Below, in pieces: positions 588 to 18,729 of a DNA stretch of 21,430 bases; positions within the stretch are counted from its first letter, which is position 1; each line of letters begins with the position of its first letter. The notes beneath the pieces were generated by a model. The model was not told the DNA's origin. It ran no database searches and was given only the letters and a program-made list of their open reading frames with translations. A program made the translations under genes and the position numbers. The stretch comes from a virus. Location: the IMG/VR virus record IMGVR_UViG_3300010885_058168, positions 1 through 21,430 of that record; one strand, given 5' to 3'.

Positions 588-851
588 ATGACGGAATTGA
601 ACAGCGTACTACTTGGAACATTCGCAGCAGACGAGATCATGCAGATGGCAGATCGTCAGATGCATGGCGAGCTGCACATCGCAGTTTCCGAACAGCTCGT
701 AAACATCATCGACGAAGAGATCGAGATCAGTGACGCACTGCGTGCACTTGACAAGAACGTAGTTATCAACGCAGCAGTTGAGAAGTTCCGAGAGATGTTC
801 TCTGAGCTGCTTGATGAATGCTTTGAGTATCACCTTGAGGACGAAGCGTAA
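588..851 (+). CDS. Hypothetical acidic 87-aa protein
   Basis: ATG 588 follows GACGGAACGAGGAA at good spacing. The product is strongly acidic, with EEIEISDALRALDKN in the middle and a C-terminal EDEA, and looks mainly helical. It has a single Cys (in DECFEYH) and no membrane segment or recognised domain. It is the only gene of the P2 unit. A 146-codon frame on the opposite strand across the same bases is rejected because it has no ribosome-binding site and reads through P3 and P4. Confidence 0.8.
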   Translation: MTELNSVLLGTFAADEIMQMADRQMHGELHIAVSEQLVNIIDEEIEISDALRALDKNVVINAAVEKFREMFSELLDECFEYHLEDEA

Positions 852-863
852 CTCGTCACAAGC

Positions 864-884
864 ACCTGATATAATAGATCTATC
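864..884 (+). promoter_or_regulatory. Extended -10 promoter P3 (no gene behind it)
   Basis: ACCTGATATAATAGATCTATCA; -10 at 870-875, start near 882. The next 140 bases up to P4 contain no frame longer than about 8 codons with a ribosome-binding site, but they fold (see ncRNA at 882-1010). Confidence 0.82.
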
Positions 885-1010
885 AAGCAAACTGAATAGC
901 GGAAAGCATGGGTGCTGGACACCAGCTAAGTTAGGCGGAACATGTGCCGAACAGATACCTGCTAAGACAGAGGTCAGACTTCCGAAGATCACCGCAGCCC
1001 ATGCTTCCCC
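882..1010 (+). ncRNA. Candidate structured small RNA from P3
   Basis: The transcript expected from P3 carries AAGCATGGG (904-912) and CCCATGCTT (998-1006), a perfect 9-bp pairing. It extends inward by TGC/GCA (913-915 with 994-996, one bulged G) and outward by GG/CC (901-902 with 1007-1008). The stem closes a loop of about 78 nt with internal arms: GCTGG-ACA-CCAGC at 914-926, an imperfect arm near 930-952, and a weak CTT-CCG-AAG arm near 979-987. The overall shape is a multi-branched closed RNA. The segment has its own promoter and is bounded by P4. It is not a tRNA: there is no T-loop or CCA. Function is unknown; the RNA call is inference from structure plus absence of a gene. Confidence 0.5.
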
Positions 1011-1023
1011 CGCTTGAAAGTCG

Positions 1024-1044
1024 ACCTGATATAATAGATCTATC
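1024..1044 (+). promoter_or_regulatory. Extended -10 promoter P4
   Basis: ACCTGATATAATAGATCTATCA; -10 at 1030-1035. P4 and P5 stand in tandem 78 bp apart ahead of the first WGR gene. The only frame between them is an 8-codon ATG at 1081 ending in the TGA of P5. Confidence 0.8.
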
Positions 1045-1101
1045 AGCACGCACGATGGAATCCAAAAGATCGGAAACTAAATGCGAGCTGCCGTCAGGGC
1101 A

Positions 1102-1122
1102 ACCTGATATAATAGAACTACA
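1102..1122 (+). promoter_or_regulatory. Extended -10 promoter P5
   Basis: ACCTGATATAATAGAACTAC; -10 at 1108-1113. The downstream tail departs from the consensus ATCTATCA. Leader to ATG 1163 is about 43 nt and ends with ACGACGGAAGGA. Confidence 0.83.
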
Positions 1123-1162
1123 AGCACGACAACGTAAGATCCCAACGACGGAAGGATACGCC

Positions 1163-1405
1163 ATGACAACAAAATGGTGCCTATTGAAAGTTAGCGACGG
1201 AGACCGCGGCGCTAATGGCAAGAAGAAGGTCTACGAAGTAGTAATCACCGGAACCACGGTGACGATGAGCTGGGGCATGGCAGAGAAGCCAAGTCGTCAG
1301 ACCAAGGTGATGACGTTCGCAACTGAAGGACGTGCACGCCAGGAAGCTCTCTCAAAGGTTTGGGAGAAGCAAGGAACTGGGTACGAGTTAGCGTACTCAG
1401 TCTAA
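1163..1405 (+). CDS. WGR-domain protein, copy 1
   Basis: This 80-residue protein is little more than one WGR domain (PF05406 type). It has W-C-L-L-K near the start, then DG-x-x-G-A-N-GKKKVYEV, VTMSWGMAEK around residues 38-47 (WGM in place of the name-giving WGR), and a C-terminal GYELAYSV. WGR domains occur in PARPs, where they contact DNA, and in some bacterial proteins; free-standing phage versions have no known function. ATG 1163 is chosen over an upstream GTG at 944 because the latter would read through two promoters, and because ACGACGGAAGGA sits just before 1163. Paralogues lie at 10386-10628 and 14076-14315. A hairpin follows at 1416-1447. Confidence 0.88.
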   Translation: MTTKWCLLKVSDGDRGANGKKKVYEVVITGTTVTMSWGMAEKPSRQTKVMTFATEGRARQEALSKVWEKQGTGYELAYSV

Positions 1406-7042: not shown

Positions 7043-7063
7043 ACCTGATATAATGGATCACAT
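7043..7063 (+). promoter_or_regulatory. Extended -10 promoter P15 (leaderless configuration)
   Basis: ACCTGATATAATGGATCACA; -10 at 7049-7054, start expected at 7061-7062, which is the ATG of the next gene (7062). It is the only copy with G in place of A right after TATAAT. Confidence 0.75.
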
Positions 7064-7214
7064 GAGCAAAAAACATAATCCACTTGACGGATTGGTCAAG
7101 ACGCGCGGGAACTACGTTCTCAACCAAAAGTCTGCTACGTTTGCAGATCGCCGCACAAAGCGTAATCGCACGCGAGGTGCACAGAATCGCCGAGCTATCC
7201 AGGAGGCATGCTGA
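7062..7214 (+). CDS. Basic 50-aa protein, probable leaderless message
   Basis: The ATG at 7062 lies eight bases after the -10 box of P15, where transcription should begin, so the mRNA would have no leader. The region between P15 and the ATG has no ribosome-binding site. An in-frame ATG at 6987 is inside the previous gene and upstream of the promoter; an ATG at 7053 lies within the -10 box. The product is highly basic (DRRTKRNRTRGAQNRRAIQ, residues 29-47) and so may bind nucleic acid. Its stop overlaps the next start by one base. No family is recognised. Confidence 0.7.
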   Translation: MSKKHNPLDGLVKTRGNYVLNQKSATFADRRTKRNRTRGAQNRRAIQEAC

Positions 7215-10333: not shown

Positions 10334-10385
10334 ACGCGGTGCACATAACGGAATCCGCACAAACGACGGAAGGACGGTGGATGCC

Positions 10386-10628
10386 ATGGACAAGAAATGG
10401 TGCCTACTCAAGACAAGCGATGGCGAACGTGGCCAGGCTGGCAAGAAGAAAGTGTACGAAGTGACAGTTACTGGAACAACAGTAACCATGAGTTGGGGAA
10501 TGGCTGAGAAGTCAAATCGCCAAACTAAGGTGATCCACACCTACTCTGCCGGCAAGGCACATCAGGAAGCTTTGACCAAGGTTTACGAGAAGCTAGGTTC
10601 AGGATACGTCCTGGCCTACTCAGTCTAA
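10386..10628 (+). CDS. WGR-domain protein, copy 2
   Basis: ATG 10386 is chosen over GTG 10377 because GACGGAAGGA (10365-10374) is correctly spaced from it. The 80-residue product is one WGR-like domain: KKWCLLKTSDGERGQAGKKK, VYEVTVTGTTVTMSWGMAEK, then a helical C-terminal part ending in GSGYVLAYSV. As in the other two copies, the name-giving motif is WGM. Copies 1 and 2 share the TGTTVTMSWGMAEK block exactly, and both are followed by a hairpin of related sequence. No PARP catalytic domain is attached, so a DNA-end or adaptor role is only a guess. Confidence 0.88.
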   Translation: MDKKWCLLKTSDGERGQAGKKKVYEVTVTGTTVTMSWGMAEKSNRQTKVIHTYSAGKAHQEALTKVYEKLGSGYVLAYSV

Positions 10629-11535: not shown

Positions 11536-11736
11536 ATGGAAGATGTAACCACAGCAACAGCGGCCGTGACACCACAAGCTGCAGCAACGCTCTACACGGC
11601 CGGCAAGCCGGTTGTCGAAGTCGCCAAGGAACTTGGTATCACCTACGGTCGCGCTCGCAAGTTGATCGCTACCTCAGGTACACCAATCCGAGACTCCTCA
11701 AGCCGTCTACTCGGCCGCACACGACCAATCAAGTAG
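11536..11736 (+). CDS. Small HTH protein, 66 aa
   Basis: ATG 11536 follows AAGAAAGAAGGACACATC. After an Ala/Thr-rich start, residues 18-48 read LYTAGKPVVEVAKELGITYG then RARKLIATSGTPIRDSS. This is the resolvase/MerR-like trihelical HTH with G-K-P-V-x-E-V-A-K-E-L-G-I, followed by an arginine-rich tail (RLLGRTRPIK). It is a DNA-binding protein by fold. It lies 43 bases after the zinc protein with no new promoter, so it is probably cotranscribed. The target is unknown. Confidence 0.78.
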   Translation: MEDVTTATAAVTPQAAATLYTAGKPVVEVAKELGITYGRARKLIATSGTPIRDSSSRLLGRTRPIK

Positions 11737-14075: not shown

Positions 14076-14315
14076 ATGACTAAATGGTGCCTGTTGAAGA
14101 CGAGCGATGGTGCTCGTGGAGTGAACGACAAGAAGAAAGTGTACGAGGTAACGCTTGACGGCAACACCGTTCGTACAAGTTGGGGAATGGCTGAGAAGTC
14201 AGCTCGTCAATCTGCGACTGTGGTCTACCACTCAGAAGGTCGCGCACGCCAAGAGGCGATGGTCAAGGTTCAAGAGAAGCTTGGCAAAGGATACGTGTTA
14301 GCCTACACGGTCTAA
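14076..14315 (+). CDS. WGR-domain protein, copy 3
   Basis: ATG 14076 follows ATGACGGAAGGACGGAATCC. The 79-residue product again is one WGR-like domain: TKWCLLKTSDGARGVNDKKK, VYEVTLDGNTVRTSWGMAEK, then SARQSATVVYHSEGRARQEA and GKGYVLAYTV. It lacks the TGTTVTMS block shared by copies 1 and 2 and is the most diverged of the three, but keeps the RARQEA block of copy 1. Differences cluster in the loop before WGM and the segment after RQ, the surfaces likely to set binding preference. The hairpin at 14322-14351 follows. Confidence 0.88.
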   Translation: MTKWCLLKTSDGARGVNDKKKVYEVTLDGNTVRTSWGMAEKSARQSATVVYHSEGRARQEAMVKVQEKLGKGYVLAYTV

Positions 14316-15848: not shown

Positions 15849-15857
15849 TACTAGCGG

Positions 15858-15865
15858 TGTACTAT
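15858..15865 (+). promoter_or_regulatory. -10 box TACTAT at the terL start
   Basis: TG-TACTAT (15858-15865) puts the start at about 15872, the terL ATG. No -35 is apparent and no ribosome-binding site precedes the ATG, consistent with a leaderless message. Translation after read-through from 15236 is the alternative. Confidence 0.5.
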
Positions 15866-15871
15866 GTACAC

Positions 15872-17290
15872 ATGGCTAAGAGTGTGATGGAGCAGCTTGC
15901 TCTGCTTTCAGATGAAGAGCGTGCAGTGATCCTTGCGGGCATGGACCCAGACTCAATGTTGTGGGACTGGTCTCTTTGGGGTCGACCTGAACAGCAAGCC
16001 CCACCTGGAGATGACTGGAACATCTGGGCCTACATCGCAGGTCGTGGTGCTGGCAAGACCAGGACCGCAGCGGAGTGGGTTCGCGAGCAAGCCAAGTACA
16101 CCACAACAGGTCAGCGGCGCTTCGCCTTGGTTGCGCGTACCGCGGCTGATGTTCGCGACGTCATCGTTGAAGGTGAGTCCGGCATCATCAACGTCACGCC
16201 CCCAAGTGAGCGCCCACTCTATGAGCCGTCAAAGCGACGGTTGACCTGGCCAAACGGCAACACAGCTACCTGCTTCACGGCTGATGAGCCGGACAGCCTC
16301 CGTGGTCCTCAGTTCACGCACGCCTGGGGTGATGAGGTCGCAGCCTGGCGACAGACGCCTGATGCAGCCGGCATGACGGCCTTCGACAACCTGCGGGTTG
16401 GAACTCGTCTTGGTGCTAACCCAAAGATCATGGTTACCACAACGCCTAAACGTGTGCCGCTGCTCTATGCCCTCATAGCTGAAGCCGAGCGCACTGGCAA
16501 GGTCGTCATCACAAAAGGCTCGACGCTGGACAACTCAGGCAACCTTTCTTCAGCCTACCTGGACGCAATCACCGGCGTCTACGCCGGCACTCGGCTTGCT
16601 GCCCAGGAGCTCTACGGTGAGATGCTTGACGATGTCGAGGGAGCGCTGTGGACACAGGAGCTCATCGACCGTGGGCGTGAATCAGCCATGCCGATCGGCA
16701 CGCCTCTCAGGGTCATCGGGGTTGACCCGTCCGTAGCCGAGAACCCTCGCGATGAGTGTGGGATCATTGTCTGCGCCTCAACTGGCGAACGCGATCTTTA
16801 CAAGCGACAGAGCTGGGTGCTGGAGGATGCGTCGATCCTCGGCTCACCTGATGTGTGGGCGAACAAGGTTGTGCAGATGGCTCGCAAGTGGGGTTGCCCG
16901 GTCGTAGCTGAGGTCAACCAGGGTGGTGCTTTGGTGCGCAACGCCATCAACACCATTGACCCAACCGTCAAGGTGCTGGAGGTGCACTCCAAGTACGGCA
17001 AGGCGCTACGAGCCGAGCCGATCACCCTTGCCTACGAGCAGAACCGCGTGCACCACGTTGGCTACCTTGCGGACCTAGAGAGCCAGATGTTTAGCTGGAT
17101 CCCAGGTGAGACCAGCAAGTCGCCTGACCGCGTTGACGCCCTTGTCCACGCGCTAACGGCTTTGCTTATCAAGCCACCTGCCGGCTTCGTTGGTGGCCGG
17201 ATCACGGCTAGGTCACCAGCCGGTCGCAAGATCCCGCGCGTTGGTCCTGGTGAAGCCGGTGGTACACGCGGCATCTTCAGGGTTCGCTAG
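15872..17290 (+). CDS. terL: Terminase large subunit
   Basis: The 472-residue packaging motor is complete. The ATPase domain has Walker A AGRGAGKTR (near residue 60), Walker B-like THAWGDEVAAW (near residue 150) and the TTTPK coupling motif (near residue 190). The nuclease domain follows with VIGVDPSVAENPRDE (first acidic residue, near 285), AEVNQGG (near 345) and DRVDALVHALTALL at the end of the fold (near 420), the three acidic positions of an RNase H-like nuclease. It cuts concatemers and drives DNA into the prohead through the portal. ATG 15872 is chosen; the frame also opens at GTG 15857, inside the -10 box. No ribosome-binding site precedes it. Confidence 0.97.
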   Translation: MAKSVMEQLALLSDEERAVILAGMDPDSMLWDWSLWGRPEQQAPPGDDWNIWAYIAGRGAGKTRTAAEWVREQAKYTTTGQRRFALVARTAADVRDVIVEGESGIINVTPPSERPLYEPSKRRLTWPNGNTATCFTADEPDSLRGPQFTHAWGDEVAAWRQTPDAAGMTAFDNLRVGTRLGANPKIMVTTTPKRVPLLYALIAEAERTGKVVITKGSTLDNSGNLSSAYLDAITGVYAGTRLAAQELYGEMLDDVEGALWTQELIDRGRESAMPIGTPLRVIGVDPSVAENPRDECGIIVCASTGERDLYKRQSWVLEDASILGSPDVWANKVVQMARKWGCPVVAEVNQGGALVRNAINTIDPTVKVLEVHSKYGKALRAEPITLAYEQNRVHHVGYLADLESQMFSWIPGETSKSPDRVDALVHALTALLIKPPAGFVGGRITARSPAGRKIPRVGPGEAGGTRGIFRVR

Positions 17291-17337: not shown

Positions 17338-17865
17338 ATGAGTGAAGAAATAGAAGAAGCCGTAGCAGCCGAAGAGCCTGCGGTTGAAGTTGAAGCTGCC
17401 GGCGAGCCGGCTCCTGCTTCTGAGCCAGAGGTGCTGGAGCCAGCGCCTGCGGTCATTAACCTGGACCCACAGCCCGAGATTGATGAGCCCAAGCCGAAAG
17501 CTAAGCCGAGGGGCGCAGCCTTTGCGGCTGACGTTGAGAAGACTGAGGCTGAGGTAGCGGCCTACGATCCAACCGGCTTCGTGTTTGGCAACGGCGAAAA
17601 GGACGACATCCGGCTTGACGCCTGTGTCTACAAGAACCTATACGCCAGGAAGTCACTAAGTGTGCACCATGTGCAGCGGCTCTTGGTTGGGCACGGTCAC
17701 CATGAAGCGGGCGGAGACCTGGACGGTTACTACGGTGATGGCACCAAGTACTCCGTAGCCGAGTTCCAGACAGCCTGCGGGCTTGAGGCTACCGGCTTCA
17801 TGAATGCGGAGACCCTGACTCAGCTTGCGGCAGACGATCCGTACACGAACTTGGTTATCAGCTAA
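17338..17865 (+). CDS. Peptidoglycan-binding (PGBD1) domain protein, 175 aa
   Basis: ATG 17338 follows GAGATTGGAACATC, a weak ribosome-binding site. Residues 1-58 are acidic and rich in Glu, Ala and Pro, with no signal peptide. The C-terminal half (residues 103-168) is a PG_binding_1 domain: SVHHVQRLLVGHGHHEAGGD, then LDGYYGDGTKYSVAEFQTAC and GLEATGFMNAETLTQL. This is the Q-x-x-L...G-Y-x-G-x-x-T-x-x-A-V-x-x-F-Q...G...T-x-x-L pattern. Such domains bind cell-wall glycan or stems. Placed between terL and the next structural genes and lacking an enzyme domain, it is probably a virion-associated adhesion or decoration protein, or a lysis accessory (inference). Its stop lies in the first CAGCTAAC repeat. 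Confidence 0.85.
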   Translation: MSEEIEEAVAAEEPAVEVEAAGEPAPASEPEVLEPAPAVINLDPQPEIDEPKPKAKPRGAAFAADVEKTEAEVAAYDPTGFVFGNGEKDDIRLDACVYKNLYARKSLSVHHVQRLLVGHGHHEAGGDLDGYYGDGTKYSVAEFQTACGLEATGFMNAETLTQLAADDPYTNLVIS

Positions 17866-17898
17866 CCAGCTAACCAGCTAACCAGCTAACCAGCTAAC
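17859..17898 (+). repeat. Five tandem copies of CAGCTAAC
   Basis: Five perfect 8-bp units run from 17859 to 17898; the first holds the TAA that ends the PGBD gene. Because 8 is not a multiple of 3, the TAA falls in all three + frames across the array. Likely a slippage-expanded repeat, located directly before a terminator. Confidence 0.95.
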
Positions 17899-17909
17899 AA
17901 CTAGAACTA

Positions 17910-17941
17910 GGCCAGTCCATTGCGGGCTGGTCTCTTTCTTT
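17910..17941 (+). terminator. Rho-independent terminator
   Basis: GGCCAGTCC (17910-17918) pairs with GGGCTGGTC (17924-17932), 9 bp with two G-U and an ATTGC loop, followed by TCTTTCTTT. It closes the terL/PGBD unit. Confidence 0.82.
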
Positions 17942-18729
17942 GCAGCCTGCGGGTCGAGTTTAACGAGCCGGCTCTCAGCTAAGCTGAAGCTGATCCGTGA
18001 TGAAGTCAACTGAGTGCTCTTGGCTAAAAGCTAGGCGCAGCAGCACCTTGCCTGCTGGCTTGTCCACCAGCCAGGCGGCCCTGTCGACAAATAACAGCCT
18101 GTCTACTGAGTCTAGACCTAGTCCAAGGGCAACTCGACATGTTGTCAGGGGACTCCAGGGGGCTCCTGTAGCTTACTTTCCTGCCTGCTTTGGTTAGCTT
18201 ACTGGCTTTAGGCTGCTGGCTTACATCACCCTAGAAGCACTCAGTAGGCAGGCAGCACAGGCCAGGCAGGCAGGGGGGAGGGGGCAGGGGCAGGGTAGGC
18301 AAAGCTAGCTGGAACCTAAGCTGATCATCAGCCTGTCAGCCTGTCATAGCTCATCACCTAGCTCACAGCCTGTTGTCCATAGCTCGTCTAACCTTAACCT
18401 TGTCATTCACACTTGGCCTTGGCCTTATCTTCCTAGTAGACCTAGCCTTGGCAGCTCCTCTCCTCCACAAGCTTCACTTACTTTTGTTTTAGAAAATAAG
18501 AATACTTCTTTCTTAGAAAATAAAAACTTTTTTTCTTTCTCTCTTTTTCTGCTCGAGACACTTTCAACTTTCTCCCGTATATACGAAGGCCGTCTCTCAC
18601 GTCCAAGGCACCTAGCCTTAATGTACAAAGATCTCCTCTGTACACTCCTCCTCTTACTCTCATCCCTCTTGCTTCGTGTATTCTTCTCTTACTTTCTCGG
18701 TTGATCAACGCACGTATTTGTACAGTACG
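17942..18729. other. Gene-free segment of unusual composition
   Basis: No frame here has a credible start, ribosome-binding site or length on either strand. From 17942 to about 18420 it is rich in AGCCTG/CAGCCTG words and AGCT, with G-runs at about 18264-18300 (GGCAGGCAGGGGGG, GGGGGCAGGGGCAGGG). From about 18420 to 18700 the + strand is almost all pyrimidine, with two copies of TTAGAAAATAA (18489-18499 and 18513-18523). Stems include GCCTGCTGG (18050-18058) with CCAGC-C-AGGC (18067-18076), TCAGCT-A-AGCTGA (17975-17987), and GTACA/TGTAC (18623-18643). Palindromes CGTATATACG (18576-18585) and GTTGATCAAC (18700-18709) follow. Possible roles are packaging or replication signal, recombination scar or regulatory RNA; none is established. 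Confidence 0.8.

Follow-up and report, generated by a model that had tools for sequence, protein, structure and literature searches.

Comparison with related phages strongly supports the view that the segment behind promoter P3 of the window, by which we mean the whole 21.4-kb IMG/VR phage fragment analysed here, encodes a structured non-coding RNA that is conserved by its pairing. This RNA, designated E, occupies positions 882–1014 of the plus strand with a core at 904–1006, as delimited by a profile, a covariance model and folding, and no terminator was found for it. On the sequences compared here, E is rather likely to be an accessory small structured RNA gene, most likely one that acts in trans.

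In the mechanism that we propose, the host-type extended −10 promoter P3 would produce a transcript with a folded 5′ part. The fold is predicted to be a closed three-way junction formed by a closing helix (P1), a hairpin (P2) and a third helix that bears a variable arm; at and near this junction, unpaired letters are conserved. E would be one of several unrelated structured RNAs placed before or between the promoters of an array of small genes, and such RNA cassettes would be gained, lost and swapped, plausibly by recombination between near-identical promoter repeats. E itself would most likely be a trans-acting RNA, with a host RNA, a host protein or a host defence as its target.

Promoter Array and the Position of E

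The window contains 27 sites of the extended −10 motif TGATATAAT, all in one direction, and the 15-mer CCTGATATAATAGAT, with at most three mismatches, gives 27 matches where 0.28 are expected; no description of this promoter motif was found in the literature searched. At 24 of the 27 promoters, a gene start with a ribosome-binding site (RBS) follows 40–61 nt downstream. Three promoters depart from this rule: P15, P4 (position 1027), which forms a tandem promoter together with P5, and P3, behind which there is no gene. Promoter P3 was identified by motif match on the plus strand, with the extended −10 at 867–875 and its TATAAT at 870–875, and its transcript is expected to start at about position 882. 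The initial annotation had described P3 as a promoter without a gene, every other strong promoter leading to a gene or, for P4, to a tandem promoter. This description holds, with the short-leader open reading frame (ORF) of P15 added to the 24 genes and with P4 leading to P5. Its further statement, that about 140 bases without a translatable frame follow P3, was correct in that there is no gene, but P3 and P4 stand 160 nt apart and the segment contains two very short ATG frames.

The P15 ORF (window 7046–7214; MSKKHNPLDGLVKTRGNYVLN...) has its ATG at 7068, only about 7 nt past the expected transcript start, which makes it nearly leaderless, and a similar layout is also seen in contig L153. Promoter P5 (1103–1117, plus strand, identified by its motif) is predicted to drive a gene at 1163–1405 encoding a small WGR-domain protein (Pfam PF05406, E = 2.9e-5). 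Genes of this type occur three times in the window (1163–1405, 10377–10628 and 14076–14315), each with its own array promoter, and in one or several copies in the relatives.

A 22-nt promoter repeat, present in two identical copies on the plus strand, encloses E exactly, as read from the sequence: the first copy, ACCTGATATAATAGATCTATCA at 864–885, forms the left flank, and the second, at 1024–1045 together with P4, forms the right flank. These repeats could be recombination sites for the RNA slot. The promoter-RNA-promoter layout of the window is also found in L142/L222. E is presumably transcribed, and expression early in infection, as proposed in the initial annotation, may be suggested by the promoter type and the gene neighbourhood only.

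Folding of the Window Segment

The strands AAGCATGGG (904–912) and CCCATGCTT (998–1006) pair perfectly, and an outer extension, in which AGCGG at 898–902 pairs with CCGCT at 1010–1014 (plus strand), brings the closing helix to 14 bp with bulges; the extension belongs to the window only and is not seen in the relatives. The helix with its extension and the inner hairpin GCTGG-ACA-CCAGC (914–926) had both been predicted from the window alone, and both were found in place, the former with the bulges included. The fold of 882–1020 has an energy of −41.2 kcal mol−1 (z = −2.4), which is equalled by 2 of 200 shuffles, and a perfect stem of at least 9 bp around a loop of at least 60 nt occurs in 3 of 300 dinucleotide shuffles. 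Taken by itself, the fold of the window is only moderately above chance, and the comparison with the relatives is therefore decisive.

Homologs of E in Related Phages

Relatives were obtained by a promoter-motif scan followed by tblastn, which gave many viral contigs that have the same proteins as well as the promoter array; a protein-based search added 80 loci, and the homologs of E surfaced by listing the gene-distant promoters in the related contigs. They share a layout of GGGTGCTRGNCACYAGYTAARYTAGGCGGA, a variable arm and CCGAAG(N)ATCACCGCRGCCC, set inside a closing helix with phage-specific letters. A pattern scan located E in 14 IMG/VR contigs, all of the same phage group, and the window and seven relatives give eight distinct E sequences in all, seven of which are mutually close. 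The profile built from the seven relatives, with the window left out, matched window positions 907–1003 with E = 1.9e-11, and covariance model R1 scored the window copy at 90.4 bits. In 1.1 Mb, the covariance model found 15 copies of E and no other matches. The covariance-model search in related phages proposed at the outset thus recovered homologs, in which the pairing is kept. E is single-copy where present, and it occurs in 7 of 20 whole contigs and is absent from 13.

The phage group appears to consist of freshwater actinobacteriophages that are uncultured and mostly derived from metagenomes. The closest named relative is Actinomycetia phage DSL-LC01, which was assembled from a lake metagenome (PMC10611076) and whose record holds CDS annotation only. 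The terminase of the window (15857–17290) shares 80% identity with the DSL-LC01 enzyme and about 60% with its counterparts in Microbacterium phages. Among the named relatives, neither DSL-LC01 nor the phages of Microbacterium, Gordonia or Arthrobacter gave a copy of E, the E pattern had no match in the bacterial genome contigs scanned, and a blastn search of window 800–1200 against 50,697 phage records gave no DNA similarity. No family of Rfam 15, CRISPR repeat families included, matched E at gathering or permissive thresholds.

The first pattern match, L128, was rejected as a chance match, its sequence not continuing as E. Six contigs (L226–L231) obtained with a relaxed 3′ pattern were also attributed to chance, as they have neither promoters nor the 5′ half of E and reach a best model score of 13.4 bits.

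Pairing and Covariation

Helix P1 is formed by positions 904–913 with 997–1006 (plus strand, from the alignment), and its 10 pairs are 100% paired in the eight sequences. Four of these pairs are doubly changed with the pairing kept, and all four differ in the window from the relatives; the changes at pairs 2, 3 and 6 are unique to the window, and that at pair 1 is common to the window and at least one other sequence. Hairpin P2 (914–926, plus strand), whose five pairs are formed in all eight sequences, has one pair that alternates between G-C and A-U and another that alternates between G-C and G-U. It is followed on the same strand by the conserved unpaired junction at 927–934, which reads TAAGTTAG in the window and TAARYUAG in the family, and by the strand GCGG (935–938), which pairs with CCGC (992–995) in four pairs that are invariant in all copies. 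The variable arm (945–981) differs in length and sequence among the relatives, the E core measuring 103–122 nt, and the stem within it is formed in seven of the eight sequences, being absent or different in the window. The conserved 3′ segment CCGAAGATCACCGC follows at 982–995. Conservation as strong as that of the helices is seen in the unpaired letters that link P2 to GCGG and in those around CCGAAG-CACC.

Across the eight E sequences, 99.0% of the cells are paired, compared with 91.5% in shuffled alignments and 24–49% in slid registers. Eight pairs carry double changes, a number that is reached by none of 500 shuffles, and the covariation is 0.251 compared with 0.100 in shuffles. With only eight sequences, seven of them close together, one or two branches account for most of the double changes. 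One pair is U-G in all eight sequences and another alternates between G-U and G-C, which points to pairing in RNA of this strand. The proposal of a structured non-coding RNA behind P3 is borne out by these comparisons, as the relatives keep the pairing through double changes, show no conserved peptide and exchange E as a unit.

The kept U-G pairs also bear on the reading of E as a DNA-level element that mimics an RNA, such as a recombination hot spot, a protein-binding inverted repeat, or a packaging or replication site. Its position between 22-nt direct repeats, in a slot that recombines, would suit such an element. However, the U-G pairs, the three-way junction with asymmetric conserved loops, the constant orientation directly behind a promoter and the absence of E from most relatives make this reading highly improbable.

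The two tiny ATG frames of the window, at 908–934 (8 aa) and 942–965 (7 aa), are not conserved. With their weak RBS-like letters, they could be taken for a leader peptide or for the remains of a decayed gene, but the first ATG (908) reads AAG in the relatives, and the second frame, 7 aa in the window, measures 23 aa in L219 and 9 aa in L221 and is missing from L160 and L217 (ACACG). In addition, the differences among the E lengths of 103–122 nt are not multiples of three. The alternative of a conserved small peptide had been raised beforehand, and no reading frame or peptide is conserved across the relatives of E; a decayed gene or leader peptide is improbable in the extreme.

Genomic Context and Exchange of E

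The motif TGATATAAT is found directly upstream of E in all eight sequences, as a sequence match only, and the start of P1 lies exactly 6 nt past TATAAT in each of the seven relatives, which places it close to the expected +1. The window copy has a 5′ tail 16 nt longer than in the relatives, in addition to the extra outer helix. In most relatives, an RBS and a gene follow about 10–25 nt past the closing helix, with the usual leader AACGACGAAAGGA directly after E. No terminator-like site was found after E in the window, and none is apparent in the sequences of the relatives; together with the RBS and gene directly after E in most relatives, this indicates that in those relatives E would count as a 5′ UTR at least, and that it may form the beginning of an mRNA rather than the separate small RNA of 125–160 nt proposed at the outset.

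The main rival explanation is, in these terms, a general 5′-UTR element acting in cis, which would protect the mRNA, raise or tune translation, or bind a phage RNA-binding protein, and which would be portable through being independent of the gene. Such an element is compatible with the order of promoter, E, RBS and gene and with the lack of a terminator; the start of P1 at about +1, which would leave the 5′ end paired, and the portability of E also suit a generic leader. However, E and the gene are separated by further promoters, P4 and P5 in the window and a single one directly after P1 in L142, and closely related genes manage without E. The invariant unpaired junction letters and the single copy per genome exceed what a generic stabiliser would need, and RNA family A, described below, has terminated copies. 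We regard a 5′-UTR element as possible but somewhat unlikely.

Six unrelated gene families are found downstream of E, and five of them have related members without E elsewhere. The MEYTITL gene is accompanied by E in L221 and by none in L138/L141/L142, and the MQTKARS gene by E in L147 and by none in L145/L159/L144, while the MSKYDAY gene has E in L157/L162, RNA F in L130, and neither at window P10 and in L133. As far as gene order can tell, these arrangements show that E is independent of the neighbouring gene, and since the neighbouring genes vary while E stays the same, action in trans would be most likely. The same independence largely refutes a riboswitch or ligand-sensing leader of the next gene, for which a conserved junction with variable arms would be aptamer-like and a leader position usual. 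E has no fixed downstream gene or pathway, no directly attached gene in the window or L142, no conserved alternative pairing with an RBS or terminator that we could see, and no Rfam match, so that a riboswitch is improbable.

Contigs L142 and L141 are near-identical over about 1 kb, and in the same slot L142 has a promoter with E where L141 has a promoter with RNA A. The two contigs share the neighbours of this slot, a divergent gene on one side and a promoter-gene unit (MNNDSIVYEF...) on the other. Judged from these contigs, E is shown to be a portable unit that is exchangeable with another RNA. A role in packaging, one of the functions initially suggested, finds no support, as E lies away from the terminase gene (15857–17290) and is absent from most relatives (13 of 20). 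The neighbour of the terminase in the relatives is another RNA type, D.

Other RNA Families in the Promoter Slots

Rfam 15 gave no match for A, B, C, D, F or G. RNA A is present in 13 of the 27 records searched (L141:3268–3346, L133:2783–2858 and 11618–11695, L160:2412–2491, and others) and not in the window. It has a conserved core, UGGYCA...GAAACAAU, and a long closing helix, in which 10 of 10 pairs show double changes; the covariation is 0.822 compared with 0.235. A strong terminator-like hairpin of 13–14 bp comes after A in L143 and L130, which indicates that at least one slot family can be a separate, terminated RNA. A hammerhead-like or kink-turn reading of A was rejected by eye, as the core letters do not fit.

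RNA B (L010:4599–4675 on the minus strand, L142:8709–8763 and L160:3342–3400) lies between promoter and RBS and has covarying outer and inner helices with a nearly invariant internal loop, GGAYATGAAACC / CAGACTTTCTTCC. RNA C, of about 215 nt (L160:10760–11010, L010:2362–2613 on the minus strand, L035:6365–6620, and others), is found behind the same promoter type in many of these phages, and in several of them a hairpin that ends in a T-rich tail comes next; the L035 copy stands directly after an A RNA. RNA D (L160:18850–18986, L076:3236–3327, L022:3959–4050 on the minus strand, and others) consists of a promoter, a covarying RNA of about 90 nt and a terminator, and in several contigs it lies near and upstream of a long ORF of terminase size. 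Its loop GTACTCCAATCC recurs in the hairpin that ends family C and, being common to both, may be a shared binding site. The hairpin leaders F (GCAGGGGGTTCCAGA..TACGGATCCGGCCTCCTGC; L130:4166, L137:3179, L140:8636 and L143:4162) and G (GGGGCACGYGGAACATCGCTCACTACAGCGGTCGTCTGCGGTARGTCCTCTG; L141:13029 and L142:12191) are short and occupy promoter slots, and related genes also occur without them.

Relation to Known RNAs

The Pleft RNA of the cluster A mycobacteriophages L5, D29 and StarStuff is an abundant non-coding RNA made from a strong promoter, in L5/D29 from a region of about 500 bp at the genome end (PMC5712189). Like E, it is a non-coding RNA of an actinobacteriophage behind a strong phage promoter, with no conserved frame and with its function open. 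In contrast, E is about 110–130 nt long, accessory and swapped between promoter slots, and blastn of window 800–1200 against the phage records showed no similarity between the two. RNA anti-CRISPRs (Racrs) are small phage non-coding RNAs that mimic CRISPR repeats and serve as interchangeable counter-defence units (PMC10651486); they are comparable to E only in the way they would work, as E is a longer three-way junction and matches no Rfam CRISPR repeat family. By analogy, we take Pleft RNAs and Racrs as precedents of the kind, membership of E being shown for neither. Comparative genomics of bacteria and metagenomes has also yielded unclassified structured RNAs, covarying orphans with open function (PMC2864571), which E resembles in its covariation and its origin from environmental DNA, but no Rfam 15 model matches E. 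The phi29 packaging RNA is likewise a small structured phage RNA, whereas E has no Rfam match, lies away from the terminase and is absent from 13 of 20 contigs.

No description of such swappable phage RNAs turned up in the literature and collections that were searched. In this one phage group, promoter slots are shared and swapped by at least six structured RNA families that have no Rfam match, and RNAs such as E get passed over by phage annotation, which seeks proteins and tRNAs. We tentatively suggest, as a broader and rather unlikely reading, that E, A, B, C, D, F and G are exchangeable promoter-RNA cassettes of one freshwater actinobacteriophage lineage, forming a trans-acting arsenal for counter-defence or host takeover. 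Such an RNA arsenal would turn over as anti-defence protein genes do. If these RNAs act in trans, they would amount to an entire class of accessory phage genes that consist of RNA, whose likely targets would lie in host defence or gene expression. The question is open to test through the pair L142/L141, a natural experiment in which one slot holds either E or A.

Elsewhere in the window, about 850 nt at 17865–18720 have no convincing gene and contain pyrimidine-rich tracts. This stretch, which is possibly a regulatory or terminator region after a lysis-like gene, opens with a tandem repeat of AGCTAACC at 17860–17900.
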